Assembly: GCA_001725155.1 (NCBI GenBank)
Contig: MEFP01000019.1
Location: 372,001-436,000, forward strand
From: Lysobacteraceae bacterium SCN 69-320
GTDB taxonomy: Bacteria > Pseudomonadota > Gammaproteobacteria > Xanthomonadales > Rhodanobacteraceae
Direction of reading: 5' to 3'
DNA length: 64,000 nucleotides
Made by a program: the position numbers and the translations under genes. The notes beneath the pieces are model-generated. The model did no database searches and was not told the origin of the DNA. It saw nothing but the letters and a program-made list of their open reading frames with translations. This document shows positions 6,044 through 47,638 of the stretch, in pieces (positions within the stretch are counted from its first letter, which is position 1; each line of letters begins with the position of its first letter).

Positions 6044-9000
6044 ATGCGTACCGCGATGACTGCCACCCTGCTCCGCCCGCCGCTGCCCAAGTCCGCCAAA
6101 GTCCGCCGCTACTGGGAGAACCCGCCCGGTTCCAGCTTCGCGCTGCTGCTGGCGGAAACCGCGCGCAGCCATGCGGGACTCGTCGTCGCCGTCACACGCG
6201 ACACCCAGTCAGCGCACACGCTGGAAACCGAACTCGCAAGCTTCGTCGGCGACGGCACCGAAGTGCTGCATTTTCCCGATTGGGAAACCCTGCCGTACGA
6301 CCTGTTCGCCCCGCATCCGGAAATCGTCTCGCAGCGCATAGCCACCCTGTACCGGCTGCCCGCGCAGACGCGCGGCGTGCTCGTCGTGCCGGTGGCGACC
6401 CTGATGCAGCGCCTCGCGCCGCGCAGCTACATCAGCGGCACCGGGCTGGCCCTGAACGTGGGCCAGAAGCTCGATCTCGGCGCCGAGCAGCGCCGCCTCG
6501 AAGCGGCCGGCTACCGCAACGTGCCGCAGGTACAGGAACCCGGCGACTTCGCCGTGCGCGGCGCGCTGATCGACATCTACCCGATGGGCGCGGCCGAGCC
6601 CTACCGCATCGAGCTGTTCGACGAGGAAATCGAGTCGATCCGCAATTTCGACGCGGAAACCCAGCGCTCGCTGCACAAGGTCGAATCCGTTCGCCTGCTG
6701 CCGGGACGCGAGTTCCCGCTGACCGACGAGTCGGCCAAGAGCTTCCGCACGCGCCTGCGCGAGCGGTTTCCGATCGACATCCGCCGCTGTCCGCTCTATC
6801 AGGACATCAAGGAAGGCGCGACGCCGGCCGGCATCGACTATTACCTGCCGTTGTTCTTCACCCAGACCGAGACCCTGTTCGACTACCTCGGTGCCGACGC
6901 GCTGTTCGTCGTCGCCGATGGCGCGCTGGACGCGGCCGAGCAGTTCTGGCGCCAGACCGGCGAGCGCTACGAGCAGCGGGCCCACGACATCGAGCGACCG
7001 GTGCTGCCGCCGGCCGAGCTGTATCTCGCGCCGGACCCGCTGCGCGAGCGCCTGAACCGCGAGCTGCGCGTCGACCTCGTGCCGCGCGCGAGCAACGAGC
7101 ACGTGCAGGCGCTGGGCCTGCAGCCGGCGCCGGAGCTGCCGATCAATCGCAAGGGAGAGCAGCCCGCCGAAGAACTCACGCGTTTCCTGAGCGCGTATCC
7201 GGGCCGCGTGCTGATCGCCGCCGAATCGGCCGGCCGGCGCGAGGCGCTGATCGAGCAGTTGCAGGGCGCCGGCCTGCGTCCGCAGACCCTGACCGGCTGG
7301 GCCGAATTCGCCCGCAGCGATACGCGCTTTGCGATCGCGGTCGCGCCGCTGCAGGCCGGCTTCGCGCTGACCGAGCCGGCGCTGGCCGTGCTGACCGAGC
7401 GCGAGCTGTACGGCGAACGCGTGCAGCAGCAGCGCCGGCGCAAGCGCGCCGCACGCGACCCGGAAACCATCATCCGCGATCTGACCGAGCTCGGCCTGGG
7501 TTCGCCGATCGTCCACGTCGACCACGGCGTCGGTCGCTACCAGGGCCTGATCAAGCTCGACGTCGGCGGCAGCGCGAACGAATTCCTCGCGATCGAATAC
7601 GCCAAGGGCGACAAGCTCTACGTGCCGGTCGCCCAGCTCAACCTGGTCTCGCGCTATTCGGGCACCTCGCCCGAGCTCGCACCGCTGCATTCGCTCGGCG
7701 GCGATGCCTGGGAGCGCGCCAAGCGCAAGGCCGCGGAAAAGGTCCGCGACGTGGCCGCCGAGCTGCTCGCGATCTATGCCCAGCGCGAGGCGCGCCAGGG
7801 CACGGCGCTGGCAATCGACCGTGCTGCCTACGAGCAGTTCGCCGCGGCGTTCCCGTTCGAGGAAACGCCCGACCAGATCAGCGCGATCGACGCCGTGCTG
7901 GCCGATCTCGCCGCACCGAAGCCCATGGACCGCGTGGTCTGCGGCGACGTCGGTTTCGGCAAGACCGAGGTCGCGCTGCGCGCGGCCTTCGTCACGGCCA
8001 TGGCCGGCAAGCAGGTCGCCGTGCTCGTGCCGACGACCCTGCTCGCGCAGCAGCACTACCAGAACTTCCGCGACCGCTACGCCGACTGGCCGATCCGCGT
8101 CGACGTGCTGAGCCGCTTCAAGACCAAGAAGGAAGTCGAGGAGGCCATGGCCAAGCTGGCCGACGGCCGCATCGACGTGATGATCGGTACGCACCGACTG
8201 CTGCAGCAGGATGTGAAGTTCAAGCAGCTCGGCCTGGTCATCGTCGATGAGGAACAGCGCTTCGGCGTGCGCCAGAAGGAACAGCTCAAGAAGCTGCGCG
8301 CCGAGGTGGATCTGCTGACCCTGACCGCCACGCCGATCCCGCGCACCCTGAACATGGCCATGTCGGGCATGCGCGACCTGTCCATCATCGCGACGCCGCC
8401 GGCGCATCGCCTCGCGGTCAAGACCTTCATCGCGCCATGGGATCCGGCCCAGCTGCGCGAAGCGTTCCAGCGCGAGCTGCAGCGCGGCGGCCAGGTGTAC
8501 TTCCTGCACAACGAGGTCGAGACGATCGAGAAGATGCAGCGCGACCTGCAGGTGCTGATTCCCGAGGCGCGCATCCGCATCGCCCACGGCCAGATGCCGG
8601 AGAAGGAACTCGAGCAGGTCATGCTCGATTTCCATCGCCAGCGCTTCAACGTACTGCTGTGCACGACCATCATCGAGTCGGGCATCGACATTCCGAGCGC
8701 CAACACCATCATCGTCAACCGCGCCGACCGCTTCGGTCTGGCCCAGCTGCATCAGCTGCGCGGCCGCGTGGGCCGTTCGCACCACCGTGCCTACGCCTAT
8801 CTCGTCGTACCGGACCGGCGCCAGATGACGGCCGACGCGGAGAAGCGCCTCGAAGCGCTGGCGTCGATGGAAGAACTCGGCGCCGGCTTCACCCTGGCCA
8901 CCCACGACCTGGAGATCCGCGGCGCCGGCGAACTGCTCGGCGACGAGCAGAGCGGCCAGATGCAGGAGATCGGTTTCTCGCTGTACACCGACCTGCTCGA

Positions 9001-9508
9001 ACGCGCGGTGCGCGCGCTCAAGAGCGGCAAGGTGCCCGACTTCGAGCTCGTCAGCGCGCACGAGACCGAGGTCGAGCTGCATCTTCCGGCGCTGATCCCC
9101 GACGACTACCTGCCCGACGTGCATGCGCGCCTGACCCTGTACAAGCGCATCGCGAGCGCCCGCGACGGCGAGCGCCTGCGCGAGCTGCAGGTGGAAATGA
9201 TCGACCGCTTCGGCCTGCTGCCCGATCCCGTCAAGCATCTGTTCGCGGTGACCGAGATCAAGCTGCGCGCGACCGAGCTGGGCGTGCGCAAGATCGACTT
9301 CGGCGCCCAGGGCGGCCGCGTCGTGTTCGCGCCGCAGCCCAACATCGACCCGCTCGCCGTCATCAAACTGCTGCAGAGCCAACCGCGCGTCTACGCGCTG
9401 GACGGCCAGGACAAGCTCAAGGTGCGTCTGGAAATGCCGGGCGCCGCCGAGCGCCTGCGCTCCACTCACGACCTGCTCGCCGCGCTGGGCCAGCGCAAGG
9501 CCGCCTGA
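6044..9508 (+). CDS. mfd: Transcription-repair coupling factor Mfd
   Basis: A 1154-residue translocase that removes RNA polymerase stalled at lesions and recruits UvrA, of normal length. The N-terminal UvrB-like module is followed by the CarD-like RNA-polymerase-interacting domain (IVHVDHGVGRYQGL, near residue 490). Next come the helicase core (Walker A GDVGFGKTE, Walker B VDEEQRFGV, HQLRGRVGRSHHRAYAY) and the C-terminal TRCF domain. The first ATG (6044) is used; one four codons later is equally possible. About 250 bp of featureless DNA precede it. Confidence 0.97.
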   Translation: MRTAMTATLLRPPLPKSAKVRRYWENPPGSSFALLLAETARSHAGLVVAVTRDTQSAHTLETELASFVGDGTEVLHFPDWETLPYDLFAPHPEIVSQRIATLYRLPAQTRGVLVVPVATLMQRLAPRSYISGTGLALNVGQKLDLGAEQRRLEAAGYRNVPQVQEPGDFAVRGALIDIYPMGAAEPYRIELFDEEIESIRNFDAETQRSLHKVESVRLLPGREFPLTDESAKSFRTRLRERFPIDIRRCPLYQDIKEGATPAGIDYYLPLFFTQTETLFDYLGADALFVVADGALDAAEQFWRQTGERYEQRAHDIERPVLPPAELYLAPDPLRERLNRELRVDLVPRASNEHVQALGLQPAPELPINRKGEQPAEELTRFLSAYPGRVLIAAESAGRREALIEQLQGAGLRPQTLTGWAEFARSDTRFAIAVAPLQAGFALTEPALAVLTERELYGERVQQQRRRKRAARDPETIIRDLTELGLGSPIVHVDHGVGRYQGLIKLDVGGSANEFLAIEYAKGDKLYVPVAQLNLVSRYSGTSPELAPLHSLGGDAWERAKRKAAEKVRDVAAELLAIYAQREARQGTALAIDRAAYEQFAAAFPFEETPDQISAIDAVLADLAAPKPMDRVVCGDVGFGKTEVALRAAFVTAMAGKQVAVLVPTTLLAQQHYQNFRDRYADWPIRVDVLSRFKTKKEVEEAMAKLADGRIDVMIGTHRLLQQDVKFKQLGLVIVDEEQRFGVRQKEQLKKLRAEVDLLTLTATPIPRTLNMAMSGMRDLSIIATPPAHRLAVKTFIAPWDPAQLREAFQRELQRGGQVYFLHNEVETIEKMQRDLQVLIPEARIRIAHGQMPEKELEQVMLDFHRQRFNVLLCTTIIESGIDIPSANTIIVNRADRFGLAQLHQLRGRVGRSHHRAYAYLVVPDRRQMTADAEKRLEALASMEELGAGFTLATHDLEIRGAGELLGDEQSGQMQEIGFSLYTDLLERAVRALKSGKVPDFELVSAHETEVELHLPALIPDDYLPDVHARLTLYKRIASARDGERLRELQVEMIDRFGLLPDPVKHLFAVTEIKLRATELGVRKIDFGAQGGRVVFAPQPNIDPLAVIKLLQSQPRVYALDGQDKLKVRLEMPGAAERLRSTHDLLAALGQRKAA

Positions 9509-10623: not shown

Positions 10624-12888
10624 TCAGTATTCGGTCACCGGCTCGCCGCCGGAAAGGCGCAGGTTCAGCACCGCCGTAGCGGGTACTTCCAGGCGCTCCG
10701 GCGACACCACGGCGCGCTCGCCGGGCGACAGATCGGCGCGCACGAACACCACGCCGTTGGCGCGCGCGGCCGAGGTGTAATGCTCGAACACGGCCTGATT
10801 CAGCGCCGCGACCAGATCGAGTTCGCAGTCGGCACTGTCGGCCCAGCCGAAGTAATGTTCCTCGCCGCTGTCCTCGTCCTGCCGCACTTCGAAGAAGTCG
10901 ACCAGGCGCTGATGCGCGCGGCGGCCATCGCAGGACGTCGCCGGATCCGGCACGATCAGATAGATCTGCTCCGGAAACAGCGCCGCCAGACGCTCGCTTT
11001 TCCAGCTCGCCGCAAGCCGCTCGCGCGCCGGCTGCAGCTCCGAGGCGAATATGCGGAAGCGGTCCAGCGCTTCCTGATCGCGCGAGGCCGGGCCGCTGTC
11101 GCCCGGTGCGGCCACGTCCTGCAGCGCGCGCGCGACCCAGTCGTCGAGCGTGAGCAACTGCACCGGCGCGAACAGCGCGACAGCCGGGTAATGTTCGCCG
11201 CCGACGCCGAGACTGAACGGCCCGATGCTGCGCAGCGCCTCGCGGTAGGCCTTCGGCAGACGGCGGCCAAGCTGCTTCTCGTAGAGGTCGAGCAATTGTG
11301 CTGGCGGCGCGACACCGGCGTGCAGATCGGCGCGACCGTCCAGTGGCGTCACCGCGCGCAGCTGCGCGACGGACTGCCGATAGGCCGGCAGCAGCCCCTG
11401 CGCCGCGGCGCGCGCACGGAACTGCGCCTCGACGCCGCCGCTCGTGACGACGATCGCGCCGCGTCCCTGCAGCGCCTGCGGCGGCGCCGCGCTCGGCCGC
11501 GCTTCGCCGCGCAGTTCGTAGGCATGCAGACCCGGCGCAAGCTCCACGACGATCTGACCGCGATGGCTGCGCGGCGTCGCGCGATCCAGATCCAGCACCG
11601 CCCGGCGGCTGCCGTCTATCCACAGCTCGATGCGCGCGGCTGCCTCGTCGCTGGCCAGGTCGGCAGAGAACTGAAACGCCGCGGCGCCGGCCTTGACCGC
11701 GACACTCGGCGGCACCGGCTGACGCTCTCGGTCCAGCGCGGTCGGCAGCAGGGTCACATCGTCGCCGGCCGCGTCGAAACCGCCGACATTCGCGCCGTTC
11801 GCACCCCAGCCGAGCAGTCCGCCGTCGGCCAGCCGCGCGTACGCGTTGTAATCGCCGGCGAACAGCTCGACCACGCCCTTGCCGTCGAGCAGTTCAACGC
11901 GGCGCAGATCGCCTTCGAGCTCGTCGCCGCCGTCACCGAGCGTGCCGTAGACGTTGCCGCCGCGCGCCCAGACGCTGCCGTCGCGTTTGAGCACCAGGCT
12001 GTAGTCGTCACCGGCCGCGATCGCCGCGGCCTGATCCAGGCCGGCCAGCGGCTGCGGCGCGCGCATGGTCAGGTCCACTGCCGGCGTGGCGAGCTGGGCC
12101 GATTCGTTCGCGCCCCAGCCCCAGACGCGGCCGTCGCGATCCAGCGCGAGGCCATGAAAGCGGCCGACGCTGATCGCCGCAATGCCGTCCAGGCCGGCGA
12201 TGCGCAGCGGCTCGGCCTGCGGCGGATCGGCGAAATCCAGCGGCCGCCAGCGACCGCCTTCGCCGAGCAGCCCCCAGCGCGCGCTGCCCATGCCCCAGAC
12301 CGTGCCGTCACTGCGCAGCACCAGACTGGTGTCGCCCTGCGCGGCCACCGCCACTGCATCGGGAATCGCATCGACGATGCGCGGCAACCGCGCCTGCATG
12401 CGCGATTCGTTGCGCAGCGGGCCGCTGCCGAGCTGGCCGAGCGTGTTGCTGCCGACACTGCGCAGGCGGCCGTCCCTGCCGATCGCGAGCAGATGCTGTC
12501 GGCCCAATGCAACCGCGCGCACGCTGCCGAGCGCCTCGAAGCGCCGCGGCTGATGCGGCGCCGCCTTGCATTGCTCGGTCGGACAGGCCAGCTCGCCGAG
12601 CTCGCCCCAGAGCCACAGCGCGCCGTCGGCGTCGATGGCCGCCGCCGAATCGGATGCGTCGTGATTGATCGCGAGGCTGACGATGCGCGACAACCCGTCG
12701 ATGCGGCGGAAGGTCTTGCGCGGCCGCGGATCGTCGTCGCCGCGCACGGGCTCGGCATCGCCGCTGGCCCAGACCGTGCCGTCGGGCTGCAGCCAGAGCA
12801 CCTGGCTGCCGGCGACGATCTGCGGCGTGGCAGCAGCAGCGGCGAGCGCGGGCAGGCTGAGCAACAGACTCGCGAGCGTCCTGAGCAT
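10624..12888 (-). CDS. Exported RCC1-repeat protein with a SUKH-like C-terminal region
   Basis: A 754-residue protein with a signal peptide (about residues 1-19). About seven RCC1-type repeats follow at 30-375: DGTVWASGD, DGALWLWGE, GSNTLGQLG, DGTVWGMGS, DGRVWGWGANE, DGSVWARGG, GLLGWGANG. A beta-rich segment lies near 395-470. The C-terminal third contains LDLYEKQLGRRLPKAYREAL (532-551), which looks like the opening helix of SMI1/KNR4 (SUKH) domains. Bacterial RCC1 proteins are usually exported propellers of unknown ligand. The SUKH resemblance is by eye and needs a profile search. Confidence 0.75.
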   Translation of the reverse strand: MLRTLASLLLSLPALAAAAATPQIVAGSQVLWLQPDGTVWASGDAEPVRGDDDPRPRKTFRRIDGLSRIVSLAINHDASDSAAAIDADGALWLWGELGELACPTEQCKAAPHQPRRFEALGSVRAVALGRQHLLAIGRDGRLRSVGSNTLGQLGSGPLRNESRMQARLPRIVDAIPDAVAVAAQGDTSLVLRSDGTVWGMGSARWGLLGEGGRWRPLDFADPPQAEPLRIAGLDGIAAISVGRFHGLALDRDGRVWGWGANESAQLATPAVDLTMRAPQPLAGLDQAAAIAAGDDYSLVLKRDGSVWARGGNVYGTLGDGGDELEGDLRRVELLDGKGVVELFAGDYNAYARLADGGLLGWGANGANVGGFDAAGDDVTLLPTALDRERQPVPPSVAVKAGAAAFQFSADLASDEAAARIELWIDGSRRAVLDLDRATPRSHRGQIVVELAPGLHAYELRGEARPSAAPPQALQGRGAIVVTSGGVEAQFRARAAAQGLLPAYRQSVAQLRAVTPLDGRADLHAGVAPPAQLLDLYEKQLGRRLPKAYREALRSIGPFSLGVGGEHYPAVALFAPVQLLTLDDWVARALQDVAAPGDSGPASRDQEALDRFRIFASELQPARERLAASWKSERLAALFPEQIYLIVPDPATSCDGRRAHQRLVDFFEVRQDEDSGEEHYFGWADSADCELDLVAALNQAVFEHYTSAARANGVVFVRADLSPGERAVVSPERLEVPATAVLNLRLSGGEPVTEY

Positions 12889-39332: not shown

Positions 39333-39803
39333 ATGAAGACCCTGACCACGATCGGCTTTCTCGCCGCCGCGCTGACCGCCCACGCGGCTTTCGCCTCGCC
39401 GCAGTGCCATGCGGTCCGCGGCCTCATCGTCGACGTCCAGTTCACCGACGGCTGTACCAGCCCGAACCGCTTCTGTGCCGCCGGCACCGTCGACGGCAAT
39501 CGCAACTTCCGCGGCAGCACCGAGTTCGTCATGGACGGCGCCGTCCGCGGTCCGGCCAGCGCGCCGGGCACTCTGGCAACCTCGGGACTGCTGACCTACA
39601 CCTTGCGCGACGGCACGCTGGTCGTGCGCGAAAGCGGCCTGTCCGGCCTGCAGCAGGATGGCGAGAAGCGCTTCACCGCGTTCCAGCAGGTGCAGTCCGG
39701 CAGCGGCCGCTATGCCGGCGCCAGCGGGCATTTCTACGTGCTGGGCCAGGCCTTCGCCGATCACTTCGAAGCGGAAATCCAGGGCGAAATCTGCACACCC
39801 TGA
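39333..39803 (+). CDS. Small secreted beta-barrel-like protein
   Basis: A 156-residue protein with a signal peptide (LTTIGFLAAALTAHAAFA) and GGAG before the ATG. The C-terminal half (LTYTLRDGTLVVRESGL, FQQVQSGSGRYAGASGHFYV, DHFEAEIQGEIC) recalls the dirigent/allene-oxide-cyclase barrel pattern, in which SGxGxYxGAxG is typical. Four Cys (CHAV, GCTS, FCAA, EICTP) may form disulfides. The assignment to that fold is by eye only. It is probably controlled by the divergent XRE regulator. Confidence 0.7.
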   Translation: MKTLTTIGFLAAALTAHAAFASPQCHAVRGLIVDVQFTDGCTSPNRFCAAGTVDGNRNFRGSTEFVMDGAVRGPASAPGTLATSGLLTYTLRDGTLVVRESGLSGLQQDGEKRFTAFQQVQSGSGRYAGASGHFYVLGQAFADHFEAEIQGEICTP

Positions 39804-40103
39804 GCGCAAGACAGGGCCGCGGCGGCGCGCAGTCGGCGCGTCGCCGCGCACCTGCCGGACAGGTCTTCCGCAGCTACAGCGATACCGGTGCAAGCGTGCC
39901 GCGGCGCCGCCGACTATCACGAAAAACCCGCGCCATACGCAAATAATCCGTTTCCCGCGACGCAGTCACGAATGTGAAAAGCGAAATGCAAATTTTTATT
40001 GCATGCAGCATTACGCATTGGTATACAACGCGTGCTCCGGCAGCGCCCGGTCCGGGCGCCCCACATCGCTTGCCGCGGAAACGCGGCCACCTGGAGTCCG
40101 CTC
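39804..40103. other. Leader region of the lanthipeptide locus, 300 bp
   Basis: The 39930-40030 part is clearly less GC-rich than the flanks and contains the promoter and inverted repeat annotated at 39986-40027. The first half shows nothing. Confidence 0.6.
39986..40027 (+). promoter_or_regulatory. Promoter with overlapping inverted repeat before the lanthipeptide precursor
   Basis: TTGCAT (39999-40004) and TATACA (40022-40027) are 17 bp apart, with TG one base before the -10 (extended type). The inverted repeat ATGCAA-N7-TTGCAT (39986-40004) covers the -35 box, a layout expected for repression. The likely start site leaves a leader of about 70 nt. Confidence 0.75.
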
Positions 40104-40448
40104 ATGAGTCTCAACTGGCCCAATACTCTGTCGCTGTCCACGCTCGACAAGCTGCGCATCGAAAGCGCCGTGAACCAGACCCTGCGCGACCGGCTGCTGA
40201 AGGACCCCGCCGGCGTACTCGCCGAGCACGGCATCGCCGTGCCGGCCGGCATCAAGGTCAATACGGTCGCCGACACCGCCGACACGCATACCCTGACCCT
40301 GCCGCCGTTCGTCGGCACCGACCTGTCGAACAAGTCGCTGGGTTCGGCCACCGCCGCCGCGTCGACCTGGGAATGCACGACCTGCACGCCGACCTCGCCG
40401 ATCTGTGCCGGCTCGCTGGCTTCGCTGACCTGCGTCGGCAACAAGTAA
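40104..40448 (+). CDS. Class II lanthipeptide precursor with NHLP-type leader
   Basis: A 114-residue RiPP precursor. Residues 20-68 (NQTLRDRLLKDPAGVLAEHG, VPAGIKVNTVADTADTHTL) follow the nitrile-hydratase-like leader (NHLP) pattern: LL-DP, AL-E-G, P-G-VKV, and a terminal LP. The rest is Ser/Thr-rich and holds all four Cys (91, 94, 101, 110) in WECTTCTPTSPICAGSLAS and LTCVGNK. About a dozen Ser/Thr lie near them, as needed for lanthionine rings. TGGAG precedes the ATG. The next gene encodes the matching LanM. The leader cleavage site is not evident; KSLG/S (near 80) is a guess. Confidence 0.88.
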   Translation: MSLNWPNTLSLSTLDKLRIESAVNQTLRDRLLKDPAGVLAEHGIAVPAGIKVNTVADTADTHTLTLPPFVGTDLSNKSLGSATAAASTWECTTCTPTSPICAGSLASLTCVGNK

Positions 40449-40516
40449 CCCCGCAACCGCTTCGACTTCGCACGCCTGACCGCTGCCGCGGGTTCCTGCC
40501 GGAGCCCCGCCGGAGT

Positions 40517-40550
40517 GGTGCGCGCCGAAGAAACCGCAAGGCGGCGCACC
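40517..40550 (+). terminator. Hairpin between precursor and LanM genes
   Basis: GGTGCGCGCC pairs with GGC-G-GCGCACC around a 13-nt loop, with one bulged G. There is no U-run. Its place between a peptide gene and its enzyme fits partial termination or mRNA processing that keeps enzyme levels lower than substrate. Confidence 0.45.
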
Positions 40551-40608
40551 CGCACCGATCGCGCCGGGCGCGCCGCCGCTCTTTCCCGCCCCCCACAGCG
40601 AGATTCGC

Positions 40609-43545
40609 GTGACCGACCACGTCTCCGACGACAGCGCCGCCGACTTCGACGCCACAGCCGACACTTCGACGGCACGGCGCGGTTGCACGATCACGCCGCA
40701 GCGCGCGGCCGAACTGGCGAACGAGCCGGTCGTCATCGAGATCGTCGCGCCGTGGTTCGCCGAAGCTGCCGCACGCCTCGATGCGGCGCTCGCCGCCGAC
40801 GGCATCCATCTCGCTGCGGCGCTGCGCGAGGATTTCCTCGCCGCGCACCGCCAGGCCGTCGCGCGCCTGACCAATCTCGCGATACTGCAGCGCTATTCCA
40901 GTTTCCATCTCGTCGTCGACCCGCTGTGGCGACCGATCGAAGCCGCGCCCGGCGACGCAGCGGCCGGCAGTCCGCGCGGCGTGCTCGATGCCTATGTCGC
41001 CTGGGAACGCGGCGAGCGCCTGCTCGCCGCCGACGGACCGTATCCCGAGCTCGCCGCCCTCGTGCAGACCGCGCAGGACCAGTGGCTGGCCAACACGCGC
41101 GAACTGCTGCAGCGCGTGGCTGCGCAGCACGGCGCCATCGCCGCACTCGCCGGCTGCACGCCGCAGGCATTGGGGCCGCTGACCGGCGTACGCTTCGGCA
41201 TTTCCGATCCGCACCATCAGGGCCGCAGCGCCGCGATACTCGCGTTCGGCGCGCGCCGCATCGTCTACAAGCCGCGCAACCTGACCGGCGAAGCCGGCTT
41301 CGACGCCCTGCTGGGACGCGCGACCGCGGCCGCACTGGATCTGCCGCCGCGGCCGCTGCGCCTGATCAGCCTGGACGATCACGGCTTCATGGAATTCGTC
41401 GACACGCGCGACTGCGACGATGCCGACGCCGTGATCCGCGCGTACCGCCGCTACGGCGCGCTGGCCGCCGTCGCGCATGCGCTGGGCACCTGCGACCTGC
41501 ACCACGAGAACGTCATCGTCGACGGCGAACATCCGCTGGTCATCGACGCCGAACCGCTGTTCCGCGCGCGCCTGGCCGTATCGGCCGACGGCGAGGCGCG
41601 CCTGGCGTTCGAACGCAATCTGTCGCTGCAGGGGCTCGACGTGCGCGAGTCCCTGCTCGAACTGGGCCTGCTGCCGCTGACCCTGCGCTCGCCGCTGCCG
41701 ACCGACGACGGCGACCCGCGCGAGGAACTGCTGATCGGCGCGCTCTGCGCCTATGCCGCGCAGCCGCTGCGCGATCTCGTGCCCTGCGCACGGGGTTCCG
41801 ATCACGTGCAGATGCGCGCGGTGCAGGTGCAGGCCGACACGTTTCCGAACCTGCCGCGACTCGGCGGCCGGCACGTCGATCCACGCACGCAGATCGACGC
41901 GATCGTCGACGGCTTCGTGCGCACGCATGCCTGGCTGCGCAGCCGCCGCGACGCCTGCGCGCAGGAGCTGGCCGTGCTGCGCGACAGTCGCGTGCGCCTG
42001 CTTGCGCGGCCGACGATGGACTACACCGCGATCCTCGCGCGCTCGCTGAGTCCCGAACGGCTGCGTTCGCGCGCCGCGCGCGAGGACGGCATACGCGCGG
42101 ATCTCGCCTATACCGCCGCGGTGCGCTTCGATACCGTGCACGACCTGGCCGCCACGGAAACCGCGAGCCTGCTGATCGGCGACGTGCCGCGCTTCGAACT
42201 CGGCAGCGAGCAGACGCAGTGCGTCGCCGCGCTGCTGAAATCGCCGCTGGCCAGCGCCGCGGAACGCTGGCACGCGCTCGACGAGGAGGACTGCCGGCTG
42301 CAGACCGCGTCACTGCGCGAACGCCTGCAGCAGCGCGAGCAGACCGCCCTGGCCGTGCTGCCGCGCGGCGACGACGCCGCTGCGCTGCTGCGCCACGGCC
42401 TCGGCGTGGCCGAACTGCTGGCCGCGGCCGCGGCATCGGACACGACAGCACCACCGTGGACCTTCGCGAGCTATGCGCCGGGCTTCGGCGCGACCATGGT
42501 CCACGCCGACAACGAGTCGCTGTACGAGGGCGCCGCCGGCACCGCCGTGTTCCTGGCCGAAGCGGCGCGCTGCGGCGGCGATCCCGACTGGCTGACGCTC
42601 GCGCGGCGTCCGTTCGCCGCGCTGCTGCGCGGCGAGACGCCGCAGTGCCTGCAGCGCAGCGGCGGCGTCGGCCGCGGCCTCGGCGGACTGATCTATGCGT
42701 TGCTGCGCGTCGCCGACTGCGGCGGCGGCGCGGATCTGCTCGCCCTGGCGAAACGCCTCGCCGCCGCGCATGCGCGCGCGGTCGCTGCCGCGGACGGGCT
42801 CGACGAAGTGCTGTACGGCCGCAGCGGTCTGCTGCTCGCGCTGCTCGCGTTGCGCGCGCGGCTGCAGGATTCCAGCCTGGACGCGCCGGTCGACGCGATC
42901 GCCGGCCAGCTCGTCGAGCGCGCCGTCGTCGCGGCCGACGGCTGCCACTGGCCCGCGCCGCAGGGCCGCGGCATGCCGAACGTCAGCCACGGCACGGCCG
43001 GCATCGCGATGGCGCTCGCGCGCTGGGCGCAGGCGCGCAGCGCGGTCGAAGGTGCCGAACTCGCCGCGGCCGCATTGCGCTACGACGACACGTTCTGGCT
43101 GCCCGGCGAAGCCGGCTGGCGCGACGCGCGCCTGGACGAGCGCAGCAGCGAACAGCTGACGACCTGGGCCTGGTGCAACGGCCGTTCCGGCGCCCTGCTC
43201 GCGCGCCAGGCCGTCGCCGCGGCGCTGGGCCGGCCGTTTGCCGCCGATCTGGTCTGCGCAGCCTGCGCCGCGACAGCCGGCGACGTGCTCGCCGAGGTTT
43301 CGCCGGGCCTGTGCTGCGGCACGCCGGGCGCGGTCGACGCACTGCTGCAGGTCGCCGGCGAACTGCCGACGGACGCGTTGACGGCACGGCTGCACGCGGC
43401 CGTAGCGCTGCTCGCACGGCATACGCCGGCCAGCCAGTATTCGACCCTGACGCCGTCGCTGTTCGCCGGCACGGCCGGCCTCGGCTTCGCGCTGCTGCGC
43501 GCGGCGTGCCCGACGAGCGTTCCCAGCGTGCTCGCGTTCGGCTGA
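40609..43545 (+). CDS. lanM: Class II lanthipeptide synthetase LanM (CCG type)
   Basis: A 978-residue bifunctional enzyme, full length for the family. The N-terminal DUF4135 dehydratase (about 90-560) phosphorylates and eliminates Ser/Thr: RRIVYKPRNLTGEAGFDALL (Lys221), GTCDLHHENVIVDG and LVIDAEPLF (near 313) are its kinase-like residues. The C-terminal LanC cyclase (about 620-978) adds Cys thiols: LYEGAAGTAVFLAEA, SHGTAGIA (His794), WCNGRSG (Cys856) and LCCGTPGAVD (Cys902-Cys903). The zinc site thus reads Cys-Cys-Cys, as in ProcM-like enzymes, not Cys-Cys-His. It starts at GTG with a weak site. Confidence 0.93.
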   Translation: MTDHVSDDSAADFDATADTSTARRGCTITPQRAAELANEPVVIEIVAPWFAEAAARLDAALAADGIHLAAALREDFLAAHRQAVARLTNLAILQRYSSFHLVVDPLWRPIEAAPGDAAAGSPRGVLDAYVAWERGERLLAADGPYPELAALVQTAQDQWLANTRELLQRVAAQHGAIAALAGCTPQALGPLTGVRFGISDPHHQGRSAAILAFGARRIVYKPRNLTGEAGFDALLGRATAAALDLPPRPLRLISLDDHGFMEFVDTRDCDDADAVIRAYRRYGALAAVAHALGTCDLHHENVIVDGEHPLVIDAEPLFRARLAVSADGEARLAFERNLSLQGLDVRESLLELGLLPLTLRSPLPTDDGDPREELLIGALCAYAAQPLRDLVPCARGSDHVQMRAVQVQADTFPNLPRLGGRHVDPRTQIDAIVDGFVRTHAWLRSRRDACAQELAVLRDSRVRLLARPTMDYTAILARSLSPERLRSRAAREDGIRADLAYTAAVRFDTVHDLAATETASLLIGDVPRFELGSEQTQCVAALLKSPLASAAERWHALDEEDCRLQTASLRERLQQREQTALAVLPRGDDAAALLRHGLGVAELLAAAAASDTTAPPWTFASYAPGFGATMVHADNESLYEGAAGTAVFLAEAARCGGDPDWLTLARRPFAALLRGETPQCLQRSGGVGRGLGGLIYALLRVADCGGGADLLALAKRLAAAHARAVAAADGLDEVLYGRSGLLLALLALRARLQDSSLDAPVDAIAGQLVERAVVAADGCHWPAPQGRGMPNVSHGTAGIAMALARWAQARSAVEGAELAAAALRYDDTFWLPGEAGWRDARLDERSSEQLTTWAWCNGRSGALLARQAVAAALGRPFAADLVCAACAATAGDVLAEVSPGLCCGTPGAVDALLQVAGELPTDALTARLHAAVALLARHTPASQYSTLTPSLFAGTAGLGFALLRAACPTSVPSVLAFG

Positions 43546-43636
43546 AGCCCGCAGCGCCGCCGGTTGCTGCGGCCGCTGTCATCGTTGGCGCCCCCGCCGT
43601 ATAGCTCGTGCATACGCCCCCAACCCGGAGTCGCCC

Positions 43637-44623
43637 ATGCACCTGCTCAGCCGCCGTATCGCCGCCGTACTGCTGTTCGCCGCCGGCCTGCCGGCCGTTC
43701 CCGCCCTTGCCGCCGACAGCAGCGCGCTGCGACAGGCCGCGCAGACCGCCGCAAGCGGCTATCGCCAGGCCCAGCGCGAGCGGCTGATCGCCGCCGGCGG
43801 CCGCGACAACCGCATCGCCGCGGCCCTGCTGACCCTGCCGGCCGACGCGAACGCGCCGATTCCGGCCGCGGCGGGCGACGCGGCGCGAGCGCTGCTGCGC
43901 GAGGACGCGAACGACGAACTCGCGCTGTATGTCGCCGCGCTGAGCTGCCATCTGCAGCCCGACTGCAACGACCGCGGCGCCGTCGACCGGCTGACCGCGC
44001 GCGCCGGCGGCAATGCGCTGCACTGGCTGCTGACGCCGGGTGCGGCCGCGCCGGCCGACGCGGCGCTGCAGAAAGCCGCCGCGGCGAAAACGGCCGAGCC
44101 GCATCTCGGCGCGCTGGTCGGTGTGCTCGACAAGGCCCTGGCCGATGCCGCCGCGCCGGCCGTCACCGGCGTCGACCCGGCGGCGCTGGCCGCACAGCTG
44201 CGCGCCGATGCGATCGCGGCGATTCCGCTGCCGCGCTTCGCGCCGGCCCTCGCCGTCTGCAAGGAGGCCGCGCGCCGCGACGTCTGCCTGGACCTGGGCC
44301 GCCGCCTGTTCACCGACGCGCAGGGCAGCATCCTCTCGCGCATGATCGGCGGCGTGCTGCTGCGCCGGCTCGCCAAGGGCACGGCCGAGGAGGATGCGGC
44401 CAAGGCGTTCCGCCGCGACTATGTCTGGCTCGGCGAGCACGATCTGAATCGGGACGGGCTCGACGCAACCCTGCGCGCCGACCTCGTGCGCCACGGCGAA
44501 TGGGAGGCCTGGCAGCGCGCGGCCGAGCGCGCCGGCTTCACGCGCACGCCGCCGGCCGGCTGGGCGCCGCGCGATCCGCAGCAGCTGCTGCTGTCCGAAG
44601 AACGCAAGCCCGCGGCGCAGTGA
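43637..44623 (+). CDS. Secreted paralogue of the neighbouring kinase's sensor domain
   Basis: A 328-residue protein with a signal peptide (VLLFAAGLPAVPALA). Its sequence from about residue 95 parallels the C-terminal ~240 residues of the kinase at 45401. Shared segments include RLTARA, ALHW/AVHW, AAIPLPRFA versus EAVPLPRYA, ILSRMI, YVWL, GEWEAW and a terminal LLL-E-RKP. Helical, with paired Cys. It lies 95 bp before the sigma factor, in the same direction. It may compete for, or help present, the signal seen by the kinase; this is inference. Confidence 0.8.
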   Translation: MHLLSRRIAAVLLFAAGLPAVPALAADSSALRQAAQTAASGYRQAQRERLIAAGGRDNRIAAALLTLPADANAPIPAAAGDAARALLREDANDELALYVAALSCHLQPDCNDRGAVDRLTARAGGNALHWLLTPGAAAPADAALQKAAAAKTAEPHLGALVGVLDKALADAAAPAVTGVDPAALAAQLRADAIAAIPLPRFAPALAVCKEAARRDVCLDLGRRLFTDAQGSILSRMIGGVLLRRLAKGTAEEDAAKAFRRDYVWLGEHDLNRDGLDATLRADLVRHGEWEAWQRAAERAGFTRTPPAGWAPRDPQQLLLSEERKPAAQ

Positions 44624-44718
44624 GGCGCCCGCGACGGCGCCCGGCACGCGCCGGCGCCGTCGCGATCACGCCGCCCCCGCTCCCGCACTAGACTGCTGCC
44701 CGTATCCGACGGAGCGCC

Positions 44719-45399
44719 ATGGCCGCCTTCCCCACTACGCGCTGGAGCCTGATCCACGCCAGCCGCCGCTCGCCGGCGCAGACCCGGGCGGCCTGGGCTG
44801 CGCTGATGCGCGACTACCGGCCGGCCATCGTCGCGTATTTCCGCCGCGGCGCGCTGGCGCGCGATGCGGAGGATCTGGCCCAGGAATTCCTGCTGCGCTC
44901 GATGCAGTCCGACTGGTGGGCGCGCGCCGACGCCGAAGTCGGCAGCTTCCGCCGCTTCCTGCTCGCCCTGCTCAAGCGCTTCCGGCTCAACCGCGAAAGC
45001 GCCGCGTCCCAGCGGCGCGAATTCGGCGACGAGGCACTGGATGGCGTGGACGGCAGCGACGGCGCCGACACGCCCGAAGCCCGCTTCGACCTGCAATTCG
45101 CCCTGTGTCTGACGCGCACGGCGCTGGACGGCCTGCGCGAACGCTATGCGCGCGAGGGCCGTGCCGAACTGTTCGCGGGCCTCGAGCCCTGGCTGGCCGA
45201 GGCGCCGGGCCACGGCGAACTGGCCGCGCTGGCGACCCGGCTGCAGGTCGCGCCGAACACGCTCGCGGTCAGTCTGCGCCGCCTGCGCCAGCGCCTGCAG
45301 GAAGGCATACGCACGGCACTGGGCGAACTCTGCCTCGAACACGCCCAGGTCGACGCCGATCTCGCCGCGTTGCGCGAAGCGCTGGCGCGGACACGCTGA
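44719..45399 (+). CDS. ECF-family RNA polymerase sigma factor
   Basis: A 226-residue sigma factor with region 2 (DYRPAIVAYFRRGALARDAE, then DLAQEFLLRSM) and region 4 (ALATRLQVAPNTLAVSLRRL, then RQRLQEGIR). CGGAG precedes the ATG. No anti-sigma gene is near; instead the next gene, 1 nt after the stop, encodes a Ser/Thr kinase. ECF factors paired with kinases (EcfK/PknS in Xanthomonas, EcfP/PknT in Vibrio) are activated by phosphorylation, and this pair probably works the same way. Confidence 0.9.
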   Translation: MAAFPTTRWSLIHASRRSPAQTRAAWAALMRDYRPAIVAYFRRGALARDAEDLAQEFLLRSMQSDWWARADAEVGSFRRFLLALLKRFRLNRESAASQRREFGDEALDGVDGSDGADTPEARFDLQFALCLTRTALDGLRERYAREGRAELFAGLEPWLAEAPGHGELAALATRLQVAPNTLAVSLRRLRQRLQEGIRTALGELCLEHAQVDADLAALREALARTR

Positions 45400-45400
45400 G

Positions 45401-47638
45401 ATGTCTGCAGACCGCGACCTGCTCGCACTGGCCCGTGCCGTGTTTCCGGGCGTCGGCGAAGCGCAGTCGGCACTCGATGCGCTGGATCTGGCCGACCCGC
45501 AACAGCGCCGCTTCGGCGACTACGAACTGATCGGGCGCATCGGCCGAGGCGGCATGGGCGTGGTCTATCGCGCGCGCCAGCACAGCCTCGGCCGCGACGT
45601 CGCGCTCAAGGTCATCGCCGGCACGCACGATGACGCCGCGGCGGTCGCGCGCCTGCATGCGGAGGCGCGCGCCGCGGCGCAACTGCATCATCCGAACATC
45701 GTGCCGGTGTACGAGGTCGGCCTCGTCGACGACGTGCATTTCTTTTCGATGCCGCTGCTGCGCGGCACCACGCTCGCGCAGACCCTGCACGGCGCGCTGG
45801 CCGAAAGCACCGCGATAGAACTGACCCTGACCCTGGCCCGCGCGGTCGCCTACGCACACAGCCTCGGCCTGCTGCATCTGGACCTGAAACCGGCCAACGT
45901 GCTGCTCGACGACACCGGCCGGCCGCTGATCGGCGACTTCGGCCTCGCGCGCGCCTTCGATGCGGCCGGCGACGAGGACGCCGTGCGCGGCACGCCGGCC
46001 TACATGTCGCCCGAACAGATCGACCGCCGCCTCGGCGCGCTGAGCCCGCGCAGCGACGTCTATGCGCTCGGCGCGATGCTGTACGAATTCCTGACCGGCG
46101 CGCCGCCGCACGGCAACGACGCGAGCGCGCGCCTGCGCGCGTTGCCGGCAGCGTCGCAGCGCGGGCCGCGCGCGCTGCGCGCGGAGCTCGGCGCCGACAT
46201 CGACGCGATCTGCCGACGCTGCCTGCGGACCTCGCCGGACGATCGCTATGCAACCGTCGACGAACTCGTCGCCGATCTCGCGCGCTGCCGCGACGGCAAC
46301 GCCGTCCTCGTACGGCCGCGGCGCTGGCCCGAACGCGCCTGGCGCAGTCTGCGCCGGCATCCCGCGCTGAGCGCGGCCGTCGCGCTGGCCGCGCTGGCAC
46401 TGCTGCTGGGCCTGCTCGGCACGGTCTGGCAATGGCGCCGCGCCGAACGCGCCCGCGTCGTTGCCGAACACGAGCGCGCCGTCAGCGGTGCGCGCGCCGA
46501 GCGGCTGCGCCAGCTCGCCGGCCTGCTCGCGGCCACCTTTCCGGCCGCCGAGGCCGGCGACACCGAGCGCCGGCGCAGCGCGCGCGATGCGGTCGCCTGG
46601 CTTGCGCGCGAAGCCGGCGCCGACGCGGCCGTGCAGCGCGAGCTGCTCGAGGCGTTCGGCCAGGCCCTGCGCGCGGCCGGCAAGGGCGATGCGGTGGACA
46701 CCCTGCTCGACGAGATCCTGCGCCAGCGCGGCGCCGCCTATCGCCACGACCGCCTGGCCGCACTGCTCGCCCGCGACGATCGCGACGGCCTGCTCGCGCT
46801 GCAGTGGATCGCCGCCGGCGACACCGACGCCGCCGTACGCGAACTCGCCGCCGCCGGTGCGACGCGCCTGGTCGAACGCTACGGCGACGACGTCGATGCG
46901 CTGTACGTGCTCGCTCTGGGCTGCAGCACCGGCAGCATTCCGTGCATGCCGGACATCTTTGCGCGCCTGACCGCGCGTGCGCCGGACAATGCGGTGCACT
47001 GGATACTCGCGCCGGCCGACGAAGCCCCATTGATGACGCGCGAGCGGCTGCGGCAGGCCGCGCGCGCGCCGCGGTTCGACGATCACCTTGCCGCACAGAC
47101 CGCGCTGCTGCGTGCCACACTCGCGCCGACCACGCCGCCGCCGGAACTCGGCGAACCCCTGCAGGGCGTGCTCGACACGGCCGAGGTCGGCCCGTCGCTG
47201 CGACGCCGCGCGATCGAGGCGGTGCCGCTGCCGCGCTATGCGGCCGTCGTCGGCCTGTGCCGACCCGACCGCGCGCCGGCCGCCACCGATGCCGCGCTGC
47301 GCGCCGACTGCGACGCATTCGGCCGGCTTGCGCTGGATGCGCCCGACGCAGCGATCCTGTCGCGCATGATCGCCAGCGCCATCCTGCGCCGACTGCATCC
47401 GGACGACGCGATCGGCCGCAAGGCCTACGGCTACCGGCGCCAGTACGTCTGGCTGTCCGAACAGTTCGTGCCGCGCGGCTTGGACGCCGAACAGCTGCAG
47501 CAGGACGTCGCTCGCTACGGCGAATGGGAAGCCTGGCTGCGCCAGGCCGACCGCAGCCATGTCGCGCGCAGGCCTCCGGACGACTGGCAGCCGAAAAATC
47601 CACAGGCGCTGCTGCTGGCCGAGCAGCGCAAGCCGTAG
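45401..47638 (+). CDS. Membrane Ser/Thr protein kinase with extracytoplasmic sensor
   Basis: A 745-residue kinase. The cytoplasmic domain (40-295) has the Gly loop GRIGRGGMGVVY, Lys70 (VALKVI), HLDLKPAN (159-166, Leu replacing Arg of HRD), GDFGLARA, and GTPAYMSPEQ. One transmembrane helix lies at 322-343 (ALSAAVALAALALLLGLLG). The remaining ~400 residues face the periplasm, and the last ~240 are paralogous to the secreted protein at 43637. It is translated with the ECF sigma gene (1-nt gap), so it probably phosphorylates that sigma factor in response to an envelope signal. Confidence 0.92.
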   Translation: MSADRDLLALARAVFPGVGEAQSALDALDLADPQQRRFGDYELIGRIGRGGMGVVYRARQHSLGRDVALKVIAGTHDDAAAVARLHAEARAAAQLHHPNIVPVYEVGLVDDVHFFSMPLLRGTTLAQTLHGALAESTAIELTLTLARAVAYAHSLGLLHLDLKPANVLLDDTGRPLIGDFGLARAFDAAGDEDAVRGTPAYMSPEQIDRRLGALSPRSDVYALGAMLYEFLTGAPPHGNDASARLRALPAASQRGPRALRAELGADIDAICRRCLRTSPDDRYATVDELVADLARCRDGNAVLVRPRRWPERAWRSLRRHPALSAAVALAALALLLGLLGTVWQWRRAERARVVAEHERAVSGARAERLRQLAGLLAATFPAAEAGDTERRRSARDAVAWLAREAGADAAVQRELLEAFGQALRAAGKGDAVDTLLDEILRQRGAAYRHDRLAALLARDDRDGLLALQWIAAGDTDAAVRELAAAGATRLVERYGDDVDALYVLALGCSTGSIPCMPDIFARLTARAPDNAVHWILAPADEAPLMTRERLRQAARAPRFDDHLAAQTALLRATLAPTTPPPELGEPLQGVLDTAEVGPSLRRRAIEAVPLPRYAAVVGLCRPDRAPAATDAALRADCDAFGRLALDAPDAAILSRMIASAILRRLHPDDAIGRKAYGYRRQYVWLSEQFVPRGLDAEQLQQDVARYGEWEAWLRQADRSHVARRPPDDWQPKNPQALLLAEQRKP

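Follow-up and report, generated by a model that had tools for sequence, protein, structure and literature searches.

Class II lanthipeptides are made from a precursor peptide, consisting of a leader and a core, by a single LanM synthetase, and the described systems closest to the locus studied here are those with NHLP-type leaders and those whose LanM carries a CCG zinc motif. NHLPs are described as having a Gly-Gly end, a hypervariable region next to it and transport genes nearby (Haft 2010, PMC2887384). NHLP precursors pair with CHG LanMs and Nif11 precursors with CCG LanMs, and the CCG motif has been tied to promiscuity (PMC10027976). In the published NHLP and CCG systems the leaders are conserved and the cores variable (PMC2887384, PMC10027976, PMC7268733), and a lanthipeptide family is usually confined to one phylum, although exceptions exist (PMC7268733). 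Here we analyze a 64,000-nucleotide stretch of the genome of Lysobacteraceae bacterium SCN 69-320 (contig MEFP01000019.1, positions 372,001 to 436,000; hereafter the window), which contains a lanthipeptide precursor gene, lanA (40104–40448), followed by a synthetase gene, lanM (40609–43545), both on the + strand, as are all features given below unless stated otherwise. As judged from the sequences, the family to which this pair belongs differs from each of the published rules: the one linking NHLPs to a Gly-Gly end, a hypervariable region and transporters, the NHLP–CHG pairing, and the confinement to one phylum. We consider it quite probable that the two genes form a horizontally moving cassette whose conserved product is a class II lanthipeptide. 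For this product, expression, modification and activity, as well as the ring pattern, the removal of the leader and export, are predicted from the genes.

The precursor and synthetase genes

In terms of domain content, the 978-residue LanM, which is translated from a GTG start and contains no internal stop, is a complete class II synthetase. It scores 438.2 bits against TIGR03897 (cut-off 304), and its relatives in the PDB include LicM2 (6st5, E = 1.5e-43) and CylM (5dzt, E = 2e-18), which belong to the same class II synthetase fold family and have chains of 979–993 residues. A dehydratase domain, DUF4135, covers residues 145–530 (41041–42198; 278.5 bits), and a cyclase domain, LANC_like, covers residues 634–975 (42508–43533; 125.4 bits). 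Replacement of CylM residues D252, H254, K274, D347, H349, N352, D364, R506 or T512 impairs phosphorylation or elimination (PMC4550811). When mapped by eye from the PDB search alignment, D347, H349, N352, D364 and K274 of CylM correspond to D296, H298, N301, D313 and K221 of the window LanM, and D252, H254, R506 and T512 correspond to D200, H202, R463 and T469; all nine tested residues are present, with the same letters in all three LanM homologues introduced below. Because both domains and these nine residues are present, the assignment of the locus to class II is well supported.

The cyclase domain contains four putative zinc ligands, C856, C902, C903 and H794, whose positions are kept in all three homologues; we take the roles of C856 and H794 to be those of their counterparts in LanC enzymes. 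With C856 and C902-C903-G, the zinc site has the CCG (ProcM-like) form. In contrast, LicM2 shows a CHG-type motif in the alignment, and each of the 31 further LanM loci examined from the order to which the window belongs has CHG (30 of the 56 non-own LanM places in the order scan and one from the genus scan).

The precursor gene, identified by its open reading frame, leader profile and homologues, encodes 114 residues and is preceded by GGAG (40093–40096), the likely ribosome-binding site. Residues 1–86 (40104–40361; inferred boundary) form an NHLP-like leader without Gly-Gly, and residues 87–114 (40362–40445; STWECTTCTPTSPICAGSLASLTCVGNK) form a Ser/Thr-rich core region with cysteines at positions 91, 94, 101 and 110, the combination of leader and Cys/Ser/Thr-rich core being that of a class II lanthipeptide precursor. 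The leader matches TIGR03793 over profile positions 15–73 of 77 (32.7 bits, E = 4.9e-08). The three precursors known from this work score 32.7, 37.5 and 39.3 bits, all under the curated cut-off of 50.9; by that criterion the window leader is related to the TIGR03793 NHLP family but does not belong to it. The match is more than chance because homologous pairs occur in two other genomes. In the PDB, the precursor comes closest to an NHLP leader chimera (8tb1, E = 4.9e-06), with nitrile hydratase alpha chains as the next matches.

A sequence-only reading of this DNA had proposed a class II lanthipeptide locus consisting of a 114-residue peptide with a four-Cys, Ser/Thr-rich end and a full-length LanM, and had named a search for the dehydratase and cyclase domains as a check; the open reading frames, the family scores, both domains and the catalytic residues confirm each of these points. 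Its NHLP-type leader stands as a relationship, given the score and the homologous pairs, and is weak, lying under the curated cut-off. Its “clear promoter” before lanA was not recovered: a scan of 39750–40700 for sigma-70-type promoters returned no sites, and the region offers only a weak promoter-like TTGCAT-17-TATACA (39999–40027), found by eye, with 7 of 12 consensus bases. This sequence lies inside an AT-rich island (39930–40035; 46% GC vs 70.6% for the window), and an imperfect inverted repeat is present at 39968–39991 and 39999–40022 (71% complementary). Nor is the hairpin that was said to separate the two genes a special feature, as the fold of the 160-nucleotide gap is not above chance (z = −1.31; 21 of 200 shuffles at least as stable); the two candidate terminators returned by a scan lie on the − strand (mean of 0.9 sites in shuffled sequence). 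The CCG motif, the lack of Gly-Gly in the leader and of C39 in the genome, the core shared across phyla and the empty site in congeners went unnoticed in that reading.

Relatives and conservation of the core

A scan of a genome contig collection with the window LanM returned a single relative, from Chitinophaga sp. S165, with 39% identity over residues 15–978. In this genome, a 120-residue precursor is encoded directly upstream of lanM and is 51% identical to the window precursor over 110 residues. A profile built from the two LanMs found three proteins in 395 genomes of the Chitinophaga phylum: that of Chitinophaga sp. S165, one in a genome designated G1284 (1051 bits), where a homologous precursor again lies directly upstream of lanM, and one in G1451 (251 bits). 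The last is a relative and was rejected as a member of the family, given its LanM score and a Nif11-like precursor. The pairs in Chitinophaga sp. S165 and G1284 resemble that of the window in having an NHLP-like leader without Gly-Gly, a CCG LanM, two genes standing alone and a core of the type TW.CTTCT.T[ST]PIC.GSLASL.C; they differ in that the LanMs are 39–45% identical, the two genes are separated by 81 and 117 nucleotides, respectively, instead of 160, and the flanking genes are unrelated.

Further searches returned no additional members. A precursor profile matched 1 of 294 genomes of the Chitinophaga family and a LanM profile 1 of 391 genomes of the class of G1284, in each case the known member, and the core pattern occurs in none of the fetched loci beyond those of the three genomes. 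LanM matches were present in 150 plasmid records, none spanning 80% of the query, a plasmid search with the precursor gave three weak records, and none of 49 stretches from viral contigs was a relative. Within its own phylum the precursor matched 15 of 398 genomes at E ≤ 0.001, its own included, the others at 20–28 bits and mostly over the leader. Lanthipeptide synthetases as such are not rare in the same order, since 47 of 398 sampled genomes match LanM at E ≤ 1e-20 (own included; best other match 194.5 bits, 29% identity). Three of the eight genomes of the genus match LanM, namely the producer and two others with 30–32% identity. The producer genome itself encodes a single LanC-like protein and a single precursor.

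In this three-member family, conservation is higher in the core than in the leader or LanM. Pairwise identities over residues 88–110 are 17/23, 20/23 and 19/23, compared with 39/86, 48/84 and 38/84 (45–57%) for the leader and 39.2, 45.1 and 39.0% for LanM. Invariant in all three precursors are 17 of 23 core residues vs 28 of 86 leader residues (Fisher p = 0.0004, with the boundary set post hoc; pairwise p = 0.013, 0.0063 and 0.0012). The cysteine spacing C-x2-C-x6-C-x8-C is present in all three, and Ser or Thr is kept at eight core positions (T88, T92, T93, T95, T97, S/T98, S104 and S107). Codons differ at 14 of 17, 11 of 20 and 12 of 19 identical core residues, and it is therefore selection on the peptide, not recent DNA identity, that keeps the core. 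A core nearly unchanged across very divergent hosts is the reverse of the published pattern of conserved leaders and variable cores, and suggests that the product has a single, defined target or function. The view that the core matches nothing known does not hold, as Chitinophaga sp. S165 and G1284 carry near-identical cores; that the locus is apparently undescribed does, in that a literature search with fragments of the three cores found no match and no description of the relatives was found.

In a LanM tree of 40 rows, the CCG enzymes form one group (support 100/99) comprising the three members, the G1451 enzyme and a Nostoc plasmid enzyme. The window gene is represented twice among these rows, two plasmid loci (L086 and L087) were dropped by the motif filter, reference CCG rows are few (Nostoc and G1451), and ProcM was left out. 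The three members form a clade with support 100/100 and a long stem (1.94). In G1451 (positions 6275–9398 of locus L063), the CCG LanM lies directly downstream of a very short, 79-residue Nif11-like precursor. The Nif11-like precursors of G1451 and Nostoc score 22.6 bits (below the cut-off of 32.3) and 51.8 bits, respectively. That these two CCG enzymes have Nif11-like precursors suggests that the three-member clade switched from Nif11 to NHLP-like leaders, the direction being uncertain.

With ProcM, its prochlorosins and other CCG LanMs (PMC11667668, PMC10027976), the window locus shares the CCG zinc motif; it differs in its NHLP-like rather than Nif11 leader, in the one precursor found and in its conserved core. 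As in NHLP–LanM systems with an export cassette (PMC2887384), a nitrile-hydratase-like leader is encoded beside LanM, whereas the Gly-Gly end, the hypervariable core and the adjoining transporters are missing. The roseocin family likewise combines an NHLP-type leader with class II synthesis; there the precursors go with CHG LanMs, except in a cyanobacterial subclade with both, whereas the window enzyme is CCG (PMC10027976). An NHLP leader with a CCG LanM may have been seen before, since Zhang et al. 2014, according to PMC10027976, found highly varying leader families among ProcM-like precursors. If a CCG LanM serves one conserved substrate, it offers a test of whether CCG alone means substrate promiscuity.

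Probable gain, proposed maturation and alternative explanations

The site of the cassette is empty in two congeners. The genomes G326 and G289 share the gene order of the window (sulfatase, helix-turn-helix regulator, 156-residue protein, 328-residue protein, extracytoplasmic function (ECF) sigma factor and Ser/Thr kinase), and tblastn found no lanA or lanM between the genes for the 156- and 328-residue proteins. By blastn of the flanks against two congener loci, L078 and L079, homology on the left stops at 39803 and 39799 and on the right restarts at 43576 and 43574; the segment missing from the congeners is about 3.77 kb (39804–43573) and holds the promoter island, lanA and lanM. Because the same neighbors enclose an empty site in both, the cassette was most likely gained in this species; this explanation needs the fewest assumptions, the alternative being that the other species lost it. 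The overall GC content and that at third codon positions (GC3; 0.90 for lanA and 0.88 for lanM) are host-like, and therefore the gain was not recent or the donor was GC-rich. No mobile genes were recognized among the flanking proteins scanned. Integration marks in the form of tRNA genes or tandem repeats were considered and rejected: the window contains no tRNA genes and one weak tandem repeat, inside lanM.

In the proposed pathway, LanM would bind the NHLP-like leader, and its dehydratase domain would phosphorylate and then eliminate core Ser/Thr residues. The CCG-type cyclase would add the four core cysteines to the dehydro-residues, and four rings are the most likely outcome; a multi-ring product, as proposed earlier, would fit this number of cysteines. 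Three of the rings could be of the (S/T)-x-x-C type (T88–C91, S98–C101 and S107–C110), with the fourth within CTTC. Cleavage of the leader would then proceed without any C39 peptidase, and the finished peptide would exit by a general route.

The last step departs from the standard route, which seems unavailable in this genome because no C39 peptidase was found: a search of the producer genome (100% complete) for PF03412, aimed at C39 and at no other proteases or exporters, scored four candidates and gave no matches, and the same profile matched in 8 of 14 control genomes. A Gly-Gly cleavage site is absent from all three precursors. No transporter was found beside lanA–lanM among the window proteins scanned, or among the open reading frames of the Chitinophaga sp. 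S165 and G1284 loci, which were inspected by eye and in part scanned. A more far-reaching reading is a distinct lanthipeptide family spread between phyla as a bare lanA–lanM pair, in which a normally relaxed CCG synthetase has become dedicated to one conserved core. The host would supply a C39-independent route for leader removal and release, or the product would work without export; as a whole, this reading is possible rather than probable.

Several observations weigh against the proposed cassette and pathway and against the evidence used for them. The family with the shared core has three members only, and the core boundary of 88–110 was chosen after the alignment had been seen, which makes the Fisher p values post hoc. 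In the LanM tree, the joining of the G1451 enzyme to the three-member clade carries a long-branch warning, and an AlphaFold model of LanM from a two-row alignment (pLDDT 38) was not used. Both flanks are shared in two of the four congener regions fetched; the other two, from G322 and G398, have the right-hand genes alone within the 18 kb fetched. In Chitinophaga sp. S165, C39 was matched four times, on contigs 2, 3 and 6 and not on contig 14, which carries the cassette, and G1284 has one weak match (26.4 bits), so that C39 processing could still operate in both. The window leader also has Gly-Ser at residues 80–81, perhaps acceptable to some C39 enzymes; the homologues do not have it there.

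That none of the three genomes shows a transporter next to the two genes, that C39 is lacking in the producer and that a Gly-Gly site is absent would also fit a modified peptide that stays unexported and acts intracellularly or without losing its leader. We regard this as unlikely: leader proteases or exporters may be encoded elsewhere, the search having covered C39 alone, and known lanthipeptides as a rule act extracellularly.

Less likely again is a ProcM-like diversity system, in which numerous precursors with differing cores, scattered over the genome, share one relaxed CCG LanM, and only one of them is seen here. The CCG motif, its reported tie to promiscuity (PMC10027976) and the grouping with a Nostoc enzyme that adjoins a Nif11 precursor and a peptidase transporter speak for such a system. 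However, lanA is the sole precursor match in its own genome at E ≤ 1e-5 (three others at E = 0.3–0.8), Chitinophaga sp. S165 has one strong match (the other at E = 0.25), although precursors with unrelated leaders would escape both searches, and conservation peaks in the core, the opposite of what a diversity system would give. Least probable is a decaying or silent acquired locus without a product, for which the promoter scan without a passing site and the sporadic occurrence (1/294, 3/395 and 1/391 genomes sampled) speak, and against which stand two intact open reading frames, retained catalytic residues, host-like GC3 and a core held over large divergence.

For the proposed two-gene cassette, the C39 result turns leader trimming and release of a lanthipeptide by a Gram-negative host into a concrete question, and the size of the cassette makes for easy expression.

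Neighboring genes

To the right of the cassette, an operon at 43637–47638 encodes the secreted-looking 328-residue protein, the ECF-type sigma factor (44719–45399) and the Ser/Thr kinase, the C-terminal part of which resembles the 328-residue protein. This operon is matched in 6 of 8 genus genomes, own included. Upstream of its first gene (43637), positions 43577–43604 contain TGTCATCGT, then a spacer, then CCGTAT. The motif occurs once in the window, lanA being without it. Three congener loci (L078, L079 and L080) retain it ahead of this operon, and a fourth (L081) has a variant; it is likely the promoter of the operon-encoded ECF sigma factor. The closest PDB matches of the Mfd protein encoded in the window are four Mfd chains, from E. 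coli, at about 1304 bits, compared with 682 bits for Mycobacterium. Elsewhere in the window, 10624–12888 encodes a 754-residue protein with RCC1-type repeats.

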